The translations under genes and the position numbers were made by a program. From IMG/VR virus record IMGVR_UViG_3300007276_000318, positions 1 to 23,347 of that record: a stretch of DNA of 23,347 nt; one strand, 5' to 3'. The notes under the pieces were generated by a model, which saw only the letters and a list, made by a program, of their open reading frames with translations, searched no databases and was not told where the DNA came from. Positions 3,301-23,347 of this stretch are shown one piece after another (position 1 is the stretch's first letter; each line of letters opens with the position of its first letter). Origin of the DNA: a virus.

Positions 3301-4986
3301 ATAATCTTGCAACAATTGTTTTCTTATTGATTGTGCTTTATTTAATTTTAATTCAGAAAGTCTTCTAGCTAATTGAACAGCTTGTTCACTATCAGCTTCT
3401 CTAGCTACAACTTCTATTAATTCCTTAGCTTGTTGTTTACCTAGATTAATAAAACCTTCTTCATTCTGTACTAACTCTTTTATCATTTTATTATTCATTA
3501 CTGAATCAGCTACACCTCTAACACCTACTCCGATTCCCATTCCTGCCATAAATATAGGCATACTGAACTCATAATCTTTCTTGTAAGCATTCCATACTAA
3601 TTCTTGACCACCTTGTTCTACCGCCTCAGCAGCAGTTAGATAACCAAGCTTCTTAGCTGCAGTTAGAGATTTAAAAGCATTACCACCAATAGTAGCTGCA
3701 CCTTGAGCTGCAATAGCAGAAGTTACAGGCATGAATATTACTGCATCAGTTAATAATGACCCCATAAAACCTGAGGCATTTAATACTGGATTTTCTTTAG
3801 CATATTCTTTCATTTCAGATAATCTTTTATTTCTCTGATTCATTAATGTAGCTACTGTTCTAAAATCTTTTTGATTGTAAGAATAATCTTCAATCAGACT
3901 TGTTAAATCCTCACTATCTAAATCCTTAGTTAGTTCATCATATAACATATCTTTTTTAGGATCATAATTAGGATCAATCTTATCAGAAGTTAATACACCT
4001 TGGATACCTCTTTGTATCAAATTACCCATCGCTGATTCCTCAGTTAGTTGGTTTACAAAGTGATCACCAAGCTCATCTATATCAGCTTGCTCTATGTTTG
4101 GAATTTCTTTTGCGTTCTCATAGACATAACTAGCTGCCTCAGGGATAGCATTAAGTGTAGCACGAGTACCACGCTCAATAAGACCACTAGGCTGAAATGA
4201 AGAAGCACCTCCAAATTCTGATGTAGACTCTGCTTGAACACTTGGTGTATTAACACCAGATGGTTCTCTAAAGTTCTGTTTACTTTTACTTATAAAAGAA
4301 CTTACTTCATCTACAATTTCCTTAGGTGTATTATTAGTCATATTACTTGCAATCTTAACATGACTAACCATTTTAGCTGCTTCACCTACGGACATTATTT
4401 CTCTAGATTGATTCATAACATTTAATGCTACAATATCATCAACAACAGTATTTTCAAACTTAGGTGGTAGGCTCTGTCTAACTACATTATCATGTATGTT
4501 AATCTTTGTCTTATCACTACCTGAGAACATTTTCATATAATCTGTTGCTTTAGTACCATTAGCATCTGCAGGTATTTTACCAGATTTTAACATACCAATA
4601 ACACCTGTAGACCTCTTCTTACTACCTGCACCAACTAAATGTGATGCAGCCATAAGTCCTTGCTCAGTTATCTTAATACCGTTAATCTCTTTACCTACAT
4701 AATCTAATGCACCATTAGCTTTTAAATAACCTTTAAGCCTAGGTCTCCACTCTTTGAAGGCTTTCTCCTGAGCTTGAGCACTCTTTAGAAAATCTTCCTT
4801 ACTCTTAATACCATCCTTACCTACCCATTTACCCCTAGAATCTTTATAACCTAAGTCCTGTAATGCCATGCCTCCGAATTGATATTTACCTAGGTATCCT
4901 AGTTTATTTACAGCGTCATATTTACCTCTTGATTCTCTGTGTGCAATCTTATTTGCAAAATCATCTAGCTCTATTTTATCAGCCAT
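319..4986 (-). CDS. Internal virion protein with N-terminal lysozyme/transglycosylase-like domain (T7 gp16-like)
   Basis: This 1555-residue protein is the largest in the window and follows a gp15-like gene, as gene 16 does in T7. Its N-terminus looks like a peptidoglycan-cleaving domain: 'HRESRGKYDAVNKLGYLGKY' followed by 'QFG', with Glu18 as the probable catalytic acid in an E-S motif and the GxYQFG segment behind it. Residues beyond about 160 are mostly charged helix with two hydrophobic Gly/Ala-rich stretches (about residues 410-440 and 475-495), fitting a protein that is ejected and lines or crosses the envelope. T7 gp16 has 1318 residues, so this one is about 240 longer. I chose the ATG at 4984-4986 because GGAGGT lies four bases before it; a further in-frame ATG at 4998 precedes that site and is less likely. 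By family knowledge it helps open the cell wall and move DNA into the cell. Confidence 0.87.
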   Translation of the reverse strand: MADKIELDDFANKIAHRESRGKYDAVNKLGYLGKYQFGGMALQDLGYKDSRGKWVGKDGIKSKEDFLKSAQAQEKAFKEWRPRLKGYLKANGALDYVGKEINGIKITEQGLMAASHLVGAGSKKRSTGVIGMLKSGKIPADANGTKATDYMKMFSGSDKTKINIHDNVVRQSLPPKFENTVVDDIVALNVMNQSREIMSVGEAAKMVSHVKIASNMTNNTPKEIVDEVSSFISKSKQNFREPSGVNTPSVQAESTSEFGGASSFQPSGLIERGTRATLNAIPEAASYVYENAKEIPNIEQADIDELGDHFVNQLTEESAMGNLIQRGIQGVLTSDKIDPNYDPKKDMLYDELTKDLDSEDLTSLIEDYSYNQKDFRTVATLMNQRNKRLSEMKEYAKENPVLNASGFMGSLLTDAVIFMPVTSAIAAQGAATIGGNAFKSLTAAKKLGYLTAAEAVEQGGQELVWNAYKKDYEFSMPIFMAGMGIGVGVRGVADSVMNNKMIKELVQNEEGFINLGKQQAKELIEVVAREADSEQAVQLARRLSELKLNKAQSIRKQLLQDYDSVQIGIKEAKGNMKYIAQELGKKHPEFKKAKNEVQRLIRKSSTMEKHTGQELRQILQGTHPKLTTALSPEFSIKSISKELGIDYNMVNTPDKIREFLGIRSGKFAESVIVDGEKGYELILKKQLDELSDNKRINANHFLTNVSDVMKTSPADINAGLSRHMQNLGNKASDFIVNQADTDSYATKYLFNKGNLVSSENPHVAGFYNWLAPDNSGRQGMSRIRAGETKTIYRNRYHGSMMDNYKTQGYELLKHMNAEKSLANRMGVYTDFAKFENEVVPVFRDRLVMDKPSFMNKYPDPKVQSISDEFAKNYNKLNKEVADDAISKGVIGVGESSENYIHRSWASNKARLVPKEDLEEGIYVGMKKALDEAGLPYEESFLRTQARDFTFGLQSKDITNHIEANSTYIENLNKFLKSAEGQSTEGVKDAVESAIKKADAQKAANELGELGKRAEIDITAEIPNTNGKTLADLMDDNFISTQDRYNSRMAARTAAAEHGIKDIKVLDSWRADAILAEKKRLIANNDPHIKANTDYLDKVLKQDIKSFQYGGLGGQGDVLEAEANDAVRLLKKISVTNLMQNVGIASMAEFGGTVSEIGAYNAVKSLVDPLRHMIRKNHLLGSGVTNIRSLTDDMAALTGIGMGDMAFSSRGVSQAEQIYKNGVMSSVEKSIDAAGSVTQNTLGWIETVGRRATSNGLAIKWGQHFQGNEPKGIISKFLSANKVTTNRTLENAGLGTWIEEAGEKVFKTNDLYDSIKDNYLKHVSFDENGSVKAMNFENWSTESREAFRNTIKLQTSHIYADPDSTTAAFWQTTSLGRILNQFRTFSVNATSKIAGFTYGNLANGIKHQDADEVLKFSNKMFWAATMGTMAVGIRDELTSAGTGHDKGFGQIADTPFQSIAIGFSRSSLIGNLDVINGIGGSLFGYDNVFNRSSFTGRDKNFFNLANTPIGQIGVNAFKGTAGVLQGDFGQAAESAGKLTPFKRQLGIQQMINILNK

Positions 4987-19145: not shown

Positions 19146-20990
19146 TTAATGAGTCTCAGCGTAATTACTGCCTGAGTTGCTATCTGAATCAAGTTTTAAT
19201 TTGATCCCTAATTTCTTCTCTGTATTAGTCATTGCTAATTTAGAGATTTGATCTAATTCTTCATGTGTTATTTCTTCTGGGCCATATCCTATTTGAAGCT
19301 CATCGTGTACAAAAGCCAGTTGTTTGATATAATTATTGTAACAAATATCTCTTTGACTAAGTATTTCGTGTATCTCATTCATCCAATTCTTACAAACAAT
19401 AGCTCCTGCTGATTGAAGTAAATAGTTTAAAGCTGCATGTTCACTTGAACAGTATATCTTACGTCCGTCTAGTGCTTTAACATAACCTTTAGTCTTAATA
19501 ACATGTTTAACTGCTTCTGTAAGTTTAACTAATGCAGGTAAATTTTTATCAAAACTATCAACTACTTTCTTCATAGCTTTTACTGACATACCACAAGTCT
19601 CTGCAAGACCTGCAATACCAGAACCATATATCTTAGCGTAGATAAATGTCTTAGCTGTATCTCTTGAGTCTAAACCTGCTGCTGTTTGGTTAACAGTGTG
19701 TATGTCACCATTTAATACTACATCTGCATATTCACCATTATCAAATGGGAACATATAATGAGCTAACATTCTCAACTCTAAACCACTTGCATCAGTACCG
19801 AATAACTTCATACCTTTAGGAGCTTCAAATAATCCTCTACACTCTTTGCCCCAAGGTGATCTTACCGATGGTATCTGAGCTAAATTAGGTCTACTATGTG
19901 TACACCTACTTGTCCCTGCGCCCAATGTATTAACCCTACCGTGAATACTTTTAGTATCTTCATTATAAAGTTTAATCCACGCAGCGTTACCATTAGATAA
20001 CATACCAAGTCTTTTATCAATCATCAGATATTCTGAGATATATTTAGCTACTGGGTACTTCATCTTGTCTAATACTTCTTCACTAAGTGTAGGTTTACCA
20101 TCAGCTCCAAAGTCTTTAGGCTTCCAGTTACATCTAGACATTAACCGTTGACCTACATCATATCTTGAATTAGGGTTAAACGGTTTGACCTTTAGTGCTG
20201 TATAAGCGGCACCTTGGTGTCTATCACCTTTAGTTTTATCCTTGTACTTAATAGTTCTCTTAGGTACTTTAATACCCATGTTTACTAAGAAGTCACCACC
20301 AAGTTCATCTTCAATTAACTCAGTAAGTTCTTCTTTACGAGCTGTAAGATCATCTAGCAACTTATATGCTTTATCTATATTAAAGTTAAAACCTTTCTCT
20401 GTTTGAGCTAGACATATCCTTTGAGATTCATGTTCTGTTTTTAAAGCTTCTACTGGTATATCTTCTTTCTCTAGTCTGTGGAATAGTTTAGCGTTCACAA
20501 TTACATCTTGTACGCAGTAATCCATCATATCTTCTGAGAAGGTCTCGAATCCTACTTCTTTTCCAAAGTCACCTTTATGGCAACCCATCCGTAAGCCATA
20601 GGCTTCTAATGAATGTTTACCAATACAAGCCATACGTCTTTTCTCAACTTCTGTACGTTGGTTTACTGGTTTATTCATTACTGATCTTAATCTCTTAAAA
20701 TCTCTATTTTTAATGTCTGGGAATGCTAACTTAGCAGCAATAAGTGTATCATAGACCTCACCAGTGTAAGTCCACTTAGGGTATATTTTCTTTATAGCTC
20801 TTAAGTCGAAGTCAAGCCCATTATGTGCAATTAAGACTTTTGCGTCTTGTAAGAATTTTAGACCCTTTTTTATTTCATCGGGTCTAAATCTCCATACTTC
20901 ATCTGTGTCGACATTTATTGCAGCGATACAATGTATCTTTGTCATGTGTTCTAAATAATTATCTGATTCAATGTCAAATAGTATTCTCAT
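19146..20990 (-). CDS. DNA polymerase (T7 gp5-like, family A) with 3'-5' exonuclease
   Basis: This 614-residue enzyme aligns along its length with T7 gp5 (704). The exonuclease domain has 'FDIESD' (Asp6, Glu8), 'AHNGLDFD' (Asp62) and 'DYCVQD' (Asp162), so proofreading should be active. The polymerase has motif A 'GTDASGLELRMLAHY' (Asp400), motif B 'RDTAKTFIYAKIYGSG' (Arg443, Lys447, Tyr451, Tyr455) and motif C 'VHDELQIG' (His562, Asp563, Glu564). The end 'SNYAETH' keeps the C-terminal His of gp5. The segment that corresponds to the T7 thioredoxin-binding insertion (gp5 258-333, about 76 residues) is about 41 residues here (about 230-270), with the first half missing, so processivity may rest on another factor. 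Tyr451 is at the place of E. coli Pol I Phe762. AAGGAAGTAAA precedes the ATG. Confidence 0.96.
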   Translation of the reverse strand: MRILFDIESDNYLEHMTKIHCIAAINVDTDEVWRFRPDEIKKGLKFLQDAKVLIAHNGLDFDLRAIKKIYPKWTYTGEVYDTLIAAKLAFPDIKNRDFKRLRSVMNKPVNQRTEVEKRRMACIGKHSLEAYGLRMGCHKGDFGKEVGFETFSEDMMDYCVQDVIVNAKLFHRLEKEDIPVEALKTEHESQRICLAQTEKGFNFNIDKAYKLLDDLTARKEELTELIEDELGGDFLVNMGIKVPKRTIKYKDKTKGDRHQGAAYTALKVKPFNPNSRYDVGQRLMSRCNWKPKDFGADGKPTLSEEVLDKMKYPVAKYISEYLMIDKRLGMLSNGNAAWIKLYNEDTKSIHGRVNTLGAGTSRCTHSRPNLAQIPSVRSPWGKECRGLFEAPKGMKLFGTDASGLELRMLAHYMFPFDNGEYADVVLNGDIHTVNQTAAGLDSRDTAKTFIYAKIYGSGIAGLAETCGMSVKAMKKVVDSFDKNLPALVKLTEAVKHVIKTKGYVKALDGRKIYCSSEHAALNYLLQSAGAIVCKNWMNEIHEILSQRDICYNNYIKQLAFVHDELQIGYGPEEITHEELDQISKLAMTNTEKKLGIKLKLDSDSNSGSNYAETH

Positions 20991-20991
20991 T

Positions 20992-21612
20992 TTACTTCCT
21001 TAGTTGTTTATCTAAAAACCTTTTTAATACTCTTGTTGGCACTAAGTGAGCATCTTCATTCGTCCTAGGATCACCTGAGAACAAAACTCCAATAACTCTA
21101 CCATCTTCATTCATCACTGGTGAACCTGAGTTACCACCAAATGCTGTTACTGATATATGTATGTAAGGTATAGGATAGGGTTTAACCCAACTAAATATAC
21201 CATATTTTTCTATTACAAATCTACCATCCCTAGAGGTTAAATCATTACCCATAGGATGACCTACTACATGTACTTTATCAAACTGTTCTAATTCTTTTCT
21301 AGCTAATCTTAAACCATCTTTACGATCACTTTCTAAGATACATAAGTCATGCTCATCCGATATCATTGCTATTTTTCTGTAGTTATTATTAATGTTTAAA
21401 CCTATATCATCACCACATACGTGCATATTGGTTACTAAGAAGTTTCTATTTCTATATTTAAGATAGAATCCTGTACCTGTACCTGTAGCTGATGCTAGTT
21501 TTACTATATGTTTTGCTAATTCTTTGTATACAAATTTCTCTTCACTCGTGAATGATGACATAAGTAATACTGTTAGTATTAGTGTATTCATCCCTACTAT
21601 TAAATTTCTCAT
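20992..21612 (-). CDS. Secreted trypsin-like serine protease
   Basis: This 206-residue protein begins with a signal-peptide-like start, 'MRNLIVGMNTLILTVLLMSS', followed by a polar Ser/Glu stretch, so export to the periplasm or membrane is likely. It has the chymotrypsin-fold triad in order: 'FLVTNMHVC' (His64), 'DEHDLCILE' (Asp89) and 'FGGNSGSPVMN' (Ser162), with the oxyanion GNSGSP motif. It is the size of a single protease domain and has no PDZ domain. Its target is unknown. It lies between the helicase region and the polymerase gene, which is unusual for a phage replication block. GGGAGG precedes the ATG at 21610-21612; a start at Met8 is possible. Ideas include degrading envelope proteins, helping lysis, or affecting host stress or superinfection, but none is shown by the sequence. 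Confidence 0.87.
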   Translation of the reverse strand: MRNLIVGMNTLILTVLLMSSFTSEEKFVYKELAKHIVKLASATGTGTGFYLKYRNRNFLVTNMHVCGDDIGLNINNNYRKIAMISDEHDLCILESDRKDGLRLARKELEQFDKVHVVGHPMGNDLTSRDGRFVIEKYGIFSWVKPYPIPYIHISVTAFGGNSGSPVMNEDGRVIGVLFSGDPRTNEDAHLVPTRVLKRFLDKQLRK

Positions 21613-21632: not shown

Positions 21633-21758
21633 CTATTTATATTCTATTCTTTTACATACTGAGCACTTTTTAAATCCAAACCATTTACCTGTTCTTGGAG
21701 ATAATATTTTTAAGCTTCTGTATCTGTGTATTCCTAATAGACAATATATCCACTTCAT
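21633..21758 (-). CDS. Zinc-knuckle microprotein, 41 residues
   Basis: A frame of 41 codons runs from the ATG at 21756-21758 to TAG at 21633-21635, with AAGGAGG a few bases upstream. The product starts MKWIYCLLGIHRYRSL and has Cys6, His11, Cys32 and Cys35, in the order C-x4-H ... C-x2-C, with a basic middle ('RTGKWFGFKK'). The CxxxGH..C..C arrangement recalls small prophage proteins of the DUF1660 type, which is only a resemblance. It ends 20 bases before the protease ATG. The strong start site and ordered metal ligands support a real gene. Its ribosome binding site can be paired by an upstream anti-Shine-Dalgarno sequence. Confidence 0.75.
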   Translation of the reverse strand: MKWIYCLLGIHRYRSLKILSPRTGKWFGFKKCSVCKRIEYK

Positions 21759-21760
21759 AT

Positions 21761-21797
21761 AACCTCCTTACTAATATAAGGGAGGTATTTCACTCCC
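21761..21797 (-). promoter_or_regulatory. Competing RNA hairpins that can hide the microprotein ribosome binding site
   Basis: On the transcript, GGGAG (complement of 21793-21797) can pair with CUCCC (21780-21784) in one hairpin. In the alternative, ACCUCCCUU (21778-21786) can pair with AAGGAGGU (21762-21769), the ribosome binding site of the 41-residue gene, with an eight-base loop and one bulge. The two hairpins share the CUCC bases, so they exclude each other: one frees the start site and the other hides it. A second AAGGAGGUGA lies upstream at about 21842-21850 and can also pair with ACCUCC. That is a layout for translation control; the trigger is unknown. Confidence 0.4.
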
Positions 21798-21807
21798 ATT
21801 AATTATT

Positions 21808-21827
21808 AAAAACTCTTATTTAAGAGT
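21808..21827 (-). terminator. Weak stem-loop followed by T-run
   Basis: On the minus strand ACTCTT-AAAT-AAGAGT is a perfect six-base-pair hairpin followed by four further T. The stem has only two G-C pairs, so strong termination is doubtful. It lies between the helicase stop codon and the microprotein gene and might lower readthrough or mark an RNA end. The stop codon of a possible damaged micro-ORF is inside it. Confidence 0.3.
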
Positions 21828-21892
21828 ATTAGATACTTTAATCACCTCCTTCATAAACTCGGTTCTTACACCTGCATTCTCAAAAGGTTTAT
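21816..21892 (-). pseudogene. Possible micro-ORF with a broken start codon
   Basis: Downstream of AAGGTAACAAT the sequence reads AT-AAACCTTTTGAG. If one G stood after AT, a 25-codon frame beginning Met-Lys-Pro-Phe-Glu-Asn-Ala would run to TAA at 21816-21818 with a well-spaced ribosome binding site. As it stands there is no standard start. In the same frame an upstream ATG at about 21918-21920 is followed after seven codons by TAA. The encoded residues look protein-like, including 'NAGVRTEFMKEVIKVSN'. This may be a decayed micro-gene, a sequencing error or chance. Confidence 0.25.
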
Positions 21893-21924: not shown

Positions 21925-23347
21925 TTAAAATCCTTGATCTTCACTTGTTTCAAATGTTGCTACTGATTCTGAAAAGACACCTGTTGTATTGTCATAATAA
22001 ATTTTATCACAATGACCTGTTTGACCTGTCTTACGACATTTCAATAAGGATATCTGTACAGTACTTCTCTCTTCCGGTGTTTCTGCCATCTGATCTCTTG
22101 TTAGTAATATGACGTTATCGGCTAGCTGTTTTAGCCCTCCACTACCTCTCAAATTATTAACCGAAGCTACATTCCCTTCTTCAAAAGCTTTACCACCATT
22201 GGTGGAGTTATTCAAATGTGATACCACAAATAAGTGAATACCTAGCTCTTGAGTTAAAGACTTTAATGATGTCATAATATGATCTAAAGCTTTACGCTCA
22301 TCAATATTACCGTCCATACCAGAAACTAACATACTAATATGATCTAGATAAACAACCTTACAGTTTTCTACATTAGCTAGATATCTTATCATGTCATATA
22401 ATTTATCTGTAGATAATGAACCAAATGTATCAACAATAGATAATTTAGAATTCCCATCTTCGTCCTTAGCATTAACCATATCAGTCCAAGCCTTACGTAC
22501 TATAGGGTCTTTATTAGAGTCCTCTTCTAGATGTAGTTGTCTACCTAATTTGACTGATACTAGACCCTCTAGTGTATCTCTTATACCTTCTTCTAGATGT
22601 ATGATGCCTTGATTGAAAGCTGTAGTGTCATTAAAGTGTAACTCTATTTGCTTCATCAGTGTAGTCTTACCTGCACCACTTGCTGCTGTAATGATCGTTA
22701 AATCACCTAAACGCATACCTCTCATGTTATTAGTTAGATTAGGTAAATAACTAGGGAAATCATAGTGTTCAGTCTTATCAACCTTATCTAGTAACTCTAG
22801 TAATTTATCACCACTTTTTATTTCTTCTGGTACATGAGCTTCTGCATTCCAAATAGCTTGTGAGAGTTCTTGCGACTTACCTGCTTTAAGCATTTCATTA
22901 GCATCTTTAAGAGGTAACTTAGCAATCTTAGCATAACCTGTCGGAAACATACTTTGTATTTCCCTAGCGGCTTGTTTACCAACATCATCATTATCCATTA
23001 AAATTATCAATTCTTTGAATTTAGATAAGTAATCATAGTTAGCCTTAACATCTCTTTTAGCACTTGCTGCCCCATTAGGTAAAGATACAACAGGATATTT
23101 ATCCCCTTGTAATGTACTGACACTCATAGCGTCAATCTCACCCTCAGTTAGTACTACCTTGATCTTTTCACTTGGTGTCCAAATGTTTTGACCAAATAGT
23201 GTTGCTTCTTTAGCACTACCTGACCATGCAAATTTCTTATTTTTATCTCTATACTTTTCTGCTACGATATCACCATCATTGTTATAGTAGTAAGTTACAT
23301 GCTTACCATTAGTGACACCATAAGTAAATTTCTCTAGTGTTGCTTTA
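21925..23347 (-). CDS. Primase-helicase, C-terminal part (T7 gp4-like), cut by window edge
   Basis: The frame is open from the right edge, and 473 codons are visible; the start lies outside. The Met at 23127 is internal, since coding sequence similar to gp4 continues upstream ('YRDKNKKFAWSGS', 'LFGQNIW', 'VVLTEGEID'). TOPRIM acids are Glu in 'TEGEID' and the Asp pair in 'ILMDNDDVG'. The helicase part has Walker A 'ASGAGKTTLMKQ' (near 22660-22685), Walker B 'VVYLDHISML', motif 'LRGSGGLKQLADNVILL' and the Arg-finger-type 'LLKCRKTGQTG'. These match T7 gp4 closely. The C-terminus is acidic and ends in Phe ('FETSEDQGF'), as T7 gp4 does ('DTDF'); in T7 that tail contacts the polymerase. The N-terminal zinc domain of the primase is not visible. 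It unwinds DNA and primes lagging-strand synthesis. Confidence 0.95.
   Translation of the reverse strand, partial: KATLEKFTYGVTNGKHVTYYYNNDGDIVAEKYRDKNKKFAWSGSAKEATLFGQNIWTPSEKIKVVLTEGEIDAMSVSTLQGDKYPVVSLPNGAASAKRDVKANYDYLSKFKELIILMDNDDVGKQAAREIQSMFPTGYAKIAKLPLKDANEMLKAGKSQELSQAIWNAEAHVPEEIKSGDKLLELLDKVDKTEHYDFPSYLPNLTNNMRGMRLGDLTIITAASGAGKTTLMKQIELHFNDTTAFNQGIIHLEEGIRDTLEGLVSVKLGRQLHLEEDSNKDPIVRKAWTDMVNAKDEDGNSKLSIVDTFGSLSTDKLYDMIRYLANVENCKVVYLDHISMLVSGMDGNIDERKALDHIMTSLKSLTQELGIHLFVVSHLNNSTNGGKAFEEGNVASVNNLRGSGGLKQLADNVILLTRDQMAETPEERSTVQISLLKCRKTGQTGHCDKIYYDNTTGVFSESVATFETSEDQGF

Follow-up and report, generated by a model that had tools for sequence, protein, structure and literature searches.

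A trypsin-like serine protease with a probable membrane anchor is encoded by an exchangeable gene in the replication block of T7-like phages

Why does a T7-like phage carry a trypsin-like protease gene between its primase-helicase and its DNA polymerase? The question was raised by a stretch of viral DNA of 23,347 nucleotides, here called the window, in which a first-pass annotation had noticed a His-Asp-Ser triad behind a signal-peptide-like N-terminus and had suggested a function in the periplasm. The window and its sister contigs are genome fragments. The protease ORF begins with ATG after a ribosome-binding site, GGGAGG, and the polymerase ATG (20990) lies one base past the protease stop. 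The position between the two replication genes was confirmed (Table 1). A holin gene is located in the window downstream of the polymerase.

Table 1. Features of the protease locus in the window
Feature	Position	Strand	Basis or remark
Trypsin-like serine protease with predicted N-terminal membrane anchor, 206 aa	20992..21612	(-)	Profile, structure and alignment evidence
Probable signal anchor (N-in/C-out): hydrophobic N-terminus, about residues 1-22	21547..21612	(-)	29 members compared for hydropathy and flanking charge; helix 2-22 in model
H64-V65-C66: catalytic His and invariant Cys	21415..21423	(-)	Alignments A1, A3
D89-L90-C91: catalytic Asp and invariant Cys	21340..21348	(-)	Alignments A1, A3
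S162: catalytic Ser in GGNSGSP	21127..21129	(-)	Alignments A1, A3
Primase-helicase	21925..23127	(-)	Listed ORF incomplete at 5' end; upstream border of slot
DNA polymerase	19146..20990	(-)	Downstream border of slot
Conserved noncoding leader: AAGGAGGTGAT, covarying hairpin, ATTAATGGGAG hairpin	21770..21853	(-)	Comparison with sister contigs

The affiliation to the trypsin-like proteases held. The product matched Pfam Trypsin_2 (PF13365) with E = 1.1e-14 and 55.8 bits against a gathering cut-off of 27.6. Residues 27-183 matched PHROG 9683 'protease' (E = 6.5e-11), as did 4 of 4 members of alignment A1; this likeness is a sequence match, and PHROG 9683 was compared by its annotation alone. Sequence similarity was also observed to HtrA/Deg entries of the PDB. 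The comparison with the HtrA and chymotrypsin families, proposed together with the original annotation, agreed with it: the AlphaFold2 model (pLDDT 78, four-sequence alignment) had a chymotrypsin fold, for which Z values of about 20-23 over about 170-190 residues were computed against MarP and HtrA-family proteases. MarP (Rv3671c), a mycobacterial membrane-tethered periplasmic protease with the same fold, provided the top Foldseek matches and the top VIA-align match (3k6y: Z 22.8, rmsd 2.4, 179 residues), with which all entries differing by no more than 1 in Z, Deg and DegP ones among them, count as tied. The identity to MarP is about 21 %, the NCBIfam MarP equivalog cut-off was missed (35.5 bits vs 250), and the scores were far below the NCBIfam cut-offs for DegS, DegP and HtrA. 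MarP has four N-terminal transmembrane helices, whereas the window protease has one hydrophobic N-terminal segment. DegS, DegP and HtrA have the protease-domain fold in common with the window protease, and DegS likewise has a single N-terminal anchor. However, HtrA and DegS possess a C-terminal PDZ domain, while the protease domain of the 206-aa window protein reaches the C-terminus and a PDZ domain is missing.

The triad was computed as complete: H64 in TNMHVC, D89 in EHDLC and S162 in GGNSGSP. These residues, together with N62, C66, L90, C91 and the GxSG motif, were invariant in 28 of 28 aligned sequences, the homologues being 20-46 % identical to the window protein. From the intact triad and the modelled fold we infer that the window protease may be catalytically competent. 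The claim of a signal-peptide-like N-terminus stood only in part. The hydrophobic segment is real, with a Kyte-Doolittle peak of 2.33 at the N-terminus vs 0.73 for the best later segment, and the N-terminal peak exceeded any later one in 29 of 29 non-redundant members. The charge was more positive before the segment than after it in 22 of the 29 members, the window included. A clean signal-peptidase-I motif was absent at the window protease N-terminus on inspection by eye, thus the term signal anchor is preferred to signal peptide, and the hydrophobic N-terminus is probably uncleaved. One homologue, L041, has a lipobox-like LLGAGGC as read by eye. The first-pass annotation had named the lack of a signal peptide together with triad substitutions in close homologues as speaking against its reading; given the invariant triad and the hydrophobic N-terminus in all members, this combination was not observed.

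Cysteine conservation was computed on a retrieval of 29 loci (24 without near-copies) with a pattern demanding only the HVC cysteine. The DLC cysteine was constant among these loci, though free to vary in that retrieval; a regex check recorded it in 23 of 24, and the miss, L021, is read as the regex catching an earlier 'DL'. An even number of cysteines followed the anchor in 26 of 29 members, a count that is weakened, like the 29 of 29 for the hydrophobic peak, because the members are related and not statistically independent. The N-terminal peak, the conserved cysteines and the even counts speak for a domain that is anchored in the membrane and lies in an oxidising compartment. The sequence features point to a topology with a periplasm-facing protease domain, in which C66 and C91 may form a disulfide. 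In MarP, a disulfide joins the start and the end of the protease domain (predicted as 214-397 for an ortholog and stated to occur in MarP as well; PMC4992679), a cysteine pair different from the putative C66-C91.

Scans of viral contigs with the window protein alone yielded no match; relatives were obtained through the neighbouring genes and then with alignment A1. In these neighbour- and alignment-guided scans, the same helicase-polymerase slot held a protease in the sister contigs L002, L008, L010, L014, L016 and L055. A protease follows the helicase in L011 and L009, and both contigs end inside the protease gene. The gene was missing from the sisters L012, L013 and L057. The location in the replication block is valid for the window and these sisters, but not for all relatives. 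In L115, a more distant T7-like phage, the protease comes directly after the polymerase. In other phage types, it lies beside packaging, rII or spanin-like genes: group B homologues, from other uncultured viral contigs, adjoin terminase and portal genes, group C homologues a ClpP-like protease gene with rIIA/rIIB close by, and in group D an Rz-like spanin gene (weak match, E = 0.0018) follows the protease. A helicase-polymerase slot for the group B protease was ruled out by its terminase and portal neighbours. Other, more distant T7-like contigs with helicase and polymerase gave no protease match. The helicase-polymerase interval of the T7-like records CRP-804, HTVC109P, LUZ100 and Syn5 contained small hypotheticals or nothing, in agreement with the initial view of the gene as foreign to T7, which to our knowledge has no such protease gene. 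Among 50,697 phage records no close relative was detected, only weak matches to host-like or staphylococcal proteases, and the group C and D members used as queries gave no match to the phage records. Bacterial and archaeal genome contigs searched with alignment A1 gave no match, thus a recent host origin is unsupported at that sensitivity. Upstream in L002 and L011 lies, as read by eye, a C-terminal part resembling T7-type RNA polymerase. The 5'-3' exonuclease gene of L008 (7978-8896) appears as two overlapping ORFs, due to a frameshift or an assembly error.

The noncoding leader in the slot was present in L002, L008-L010, L012-L014 and L016, including sisters without protease. Compensatory changes were observed in its hairpin, with 94 % of cells paired vs 28-52 % in slid controls. 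An Rfam search of the leader gave no match at gathering score. The AAGGAGGTGAT(C) of the leader presumably matches the complement of the 16S rRNA 3' tail, and no conserved ORF comes after it. L009 (7320-7430) and L010 (2920-2960) have nearly identical flanks but diverge in the 3' half of the leader, where L010 has a short hairpin and L009 a longer element closed by a 7-bp stem. Between leader and protease, the window has a small cysteine-containing ORF of 41 aa (21636-21758, minus strand) that resembles by eye a 47-aa ORF at L011 795-938; a family search with the 41-aa ORF gave no match. In L013, a sister without protease, a tRNA-like cloverleaf with a CCA end and a possible GAA anticodon occupies the slot (4458-4553); it received no ARAGORN call, and its folding energy was not unusual (z -0.45).

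Exchange of the gene was computed from close relatives. The flanks of L008 and L010 share about 87 % nucleotide identity, which ends 6 bases ahead of the protease start and resumes at the last bases of the gene, whereas the two proteases share 40 % amino acid identity; the 100-base identity profile drops to 56-65 % within the protease gene. L010 and L016 are 99.4 % identical in DNA over protease and polymerase vs 65 % for their helicases. The tree places the L010 allele with L017/L018 (support 100/99), alleles of another phage type that lie beside terminase and portal, and a single clade for the T7-like alleles was rejected (AU p about 0.01). The protease gene is thus an exchangeable cassette, an accessory gene in the replication block. 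Its dN was 0.35-0.78 vs 0.05-0.29 for the neighbouring genes, about two-fold or more higher and below its dS, these rates being rough since synonymous sites are near saturation. In L016, the protease is immediately preceded by an endonuclease VII/HNH-like gene (1575-1991), which may drive the exchange. Exchange and fast change are the pattern expected of an optional gene whose partner varies, though they are not proof of it. The loss or swap in close relatives suggests a dispensable tool against the host or rival viruses.

For the function, we give about even chances to a catalytically competent, anchored and periplasm-facing protease, stabilised by a disulfide, that is part of an accessory cassette and cleaves host or rival-phage proteins located in the envelope. 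One N-terminal helix would hold the protease in the host inner membrane, and the C66-C91 disulfide would stabilise the domain facing the periplasm. Gene position alone suggests co-expression with the middle genes of the replication block, in the middle period. The targets of the exported protease would be proteins located in the envelope that differ from host to host or among competing phages. Substrate and purpose we infer as follows: the preferred picture is superinfection exclusion, in which the protease would cleave host entry factors or the ejection proteins with which a second phage spans the periplasm; as a close alternative, its target may be a defence or stress protein of the host periplasm. 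SieA of P22 is an inner-membrane exclusion protein that blocks DNA injection by a podophage, probably at the trans-periplasmic conduit, and its types are under 30 % identical to each other (PMC10883804). It is likewise phage-coded, located in the inner membrane and divided into sequence-divergent types, and the putative role is compared by analogy only; a protease activity, as proposed for the window protein, is not described for SieA. The anchor, the cysteine pairs and the cassette exchange fit the actions first considered, namely cleavage of proteins in the envelope, in stress response or in defence, or help with lysis, and do not separate these options. Fast change and exchange could equally be expected of counter-defence or a lysis aid, thus they do not single out exclusion.

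As an unlikely alternative, the protease may aid lysis by processing an envelope protein or activating a cell-wall hydrolase late in infection, as proposed for MarP and RipA. MarP, the nearest fold, reportedly cleaves the hydrolase RipA (PMC12067865), and since a similar fold acts there on a cell-wall hydrolase, lysis stays in play. The spanin-like gene after the group D protease, the window holin gene and, in sister contigs, a small acetyltransferase-like gene where related isolates carry a T7-type lysozyme point the same way. However, the protease is not adjacent to the holin in the T7-like clade, and three sisters lack it, while lysis genes are seldom optional; moreover, the window is incomplete, and an endolysin may sit outside it. 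Equally improbable is counter-defence, in which a host defence or stress protein of the membrane or periplasm would be destroyed; a membrane-anchored, variable and dispensable protease exchanged by recombination would be suited to this, but known anti-defence genes were not observed in linkage with it. A housekeeping or nutrient role, either quality control of the DegS/DegP type or the supply of replication by protein breakdown, is considered very unlikely: sequence and fold resemble HtrA/Deg proteases, yet the 206-aa protein has no PDZ domain, hosts usually have their own Deg proteases, and exchange and loss speak against a routine role. Selfish or neutral cargo retained in a recombination hotspot, as the endonuclease gene beside the protease in L016 and the tRNA-like element filling the slot in L013 might indicate, is the least probable, as a dN below dS and the triad, cysteines and anchor invariant across distant phages reflect selection for function.

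Phage databases contain annotated trypsin-like proteases (PHROG 9683; BFVD entries), thus this kind of protein is already known. A full-text literature search, with most subscription journals and all bioRxiv preprints outside its coverage, retrieved no work on phage proteases of the trypsin type that are exported; neither an exported, cysteine-paired, exchangeable protease of T7-like phages nor proteolytic superinfection exclusion as a mechanism was found in this literature. Whole-gene exchange between near-identical phage genomes often marks conflict with hosts or other phages. The defined active site in an exchangeable slot allows a clean comparison of wild type and S162A and offers, through N-terminomics, a route to the substrate. 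A broader reading, which we hold to be doubtful, is a phage protease family that excludes rivals or disarms hosts by periplasmic cleavage, with alleles exchanged between unrelated phage types and thereby changing specificity. If ejection or receptor proteins were cut, these phages would have a protease-based way to exclude competitors.
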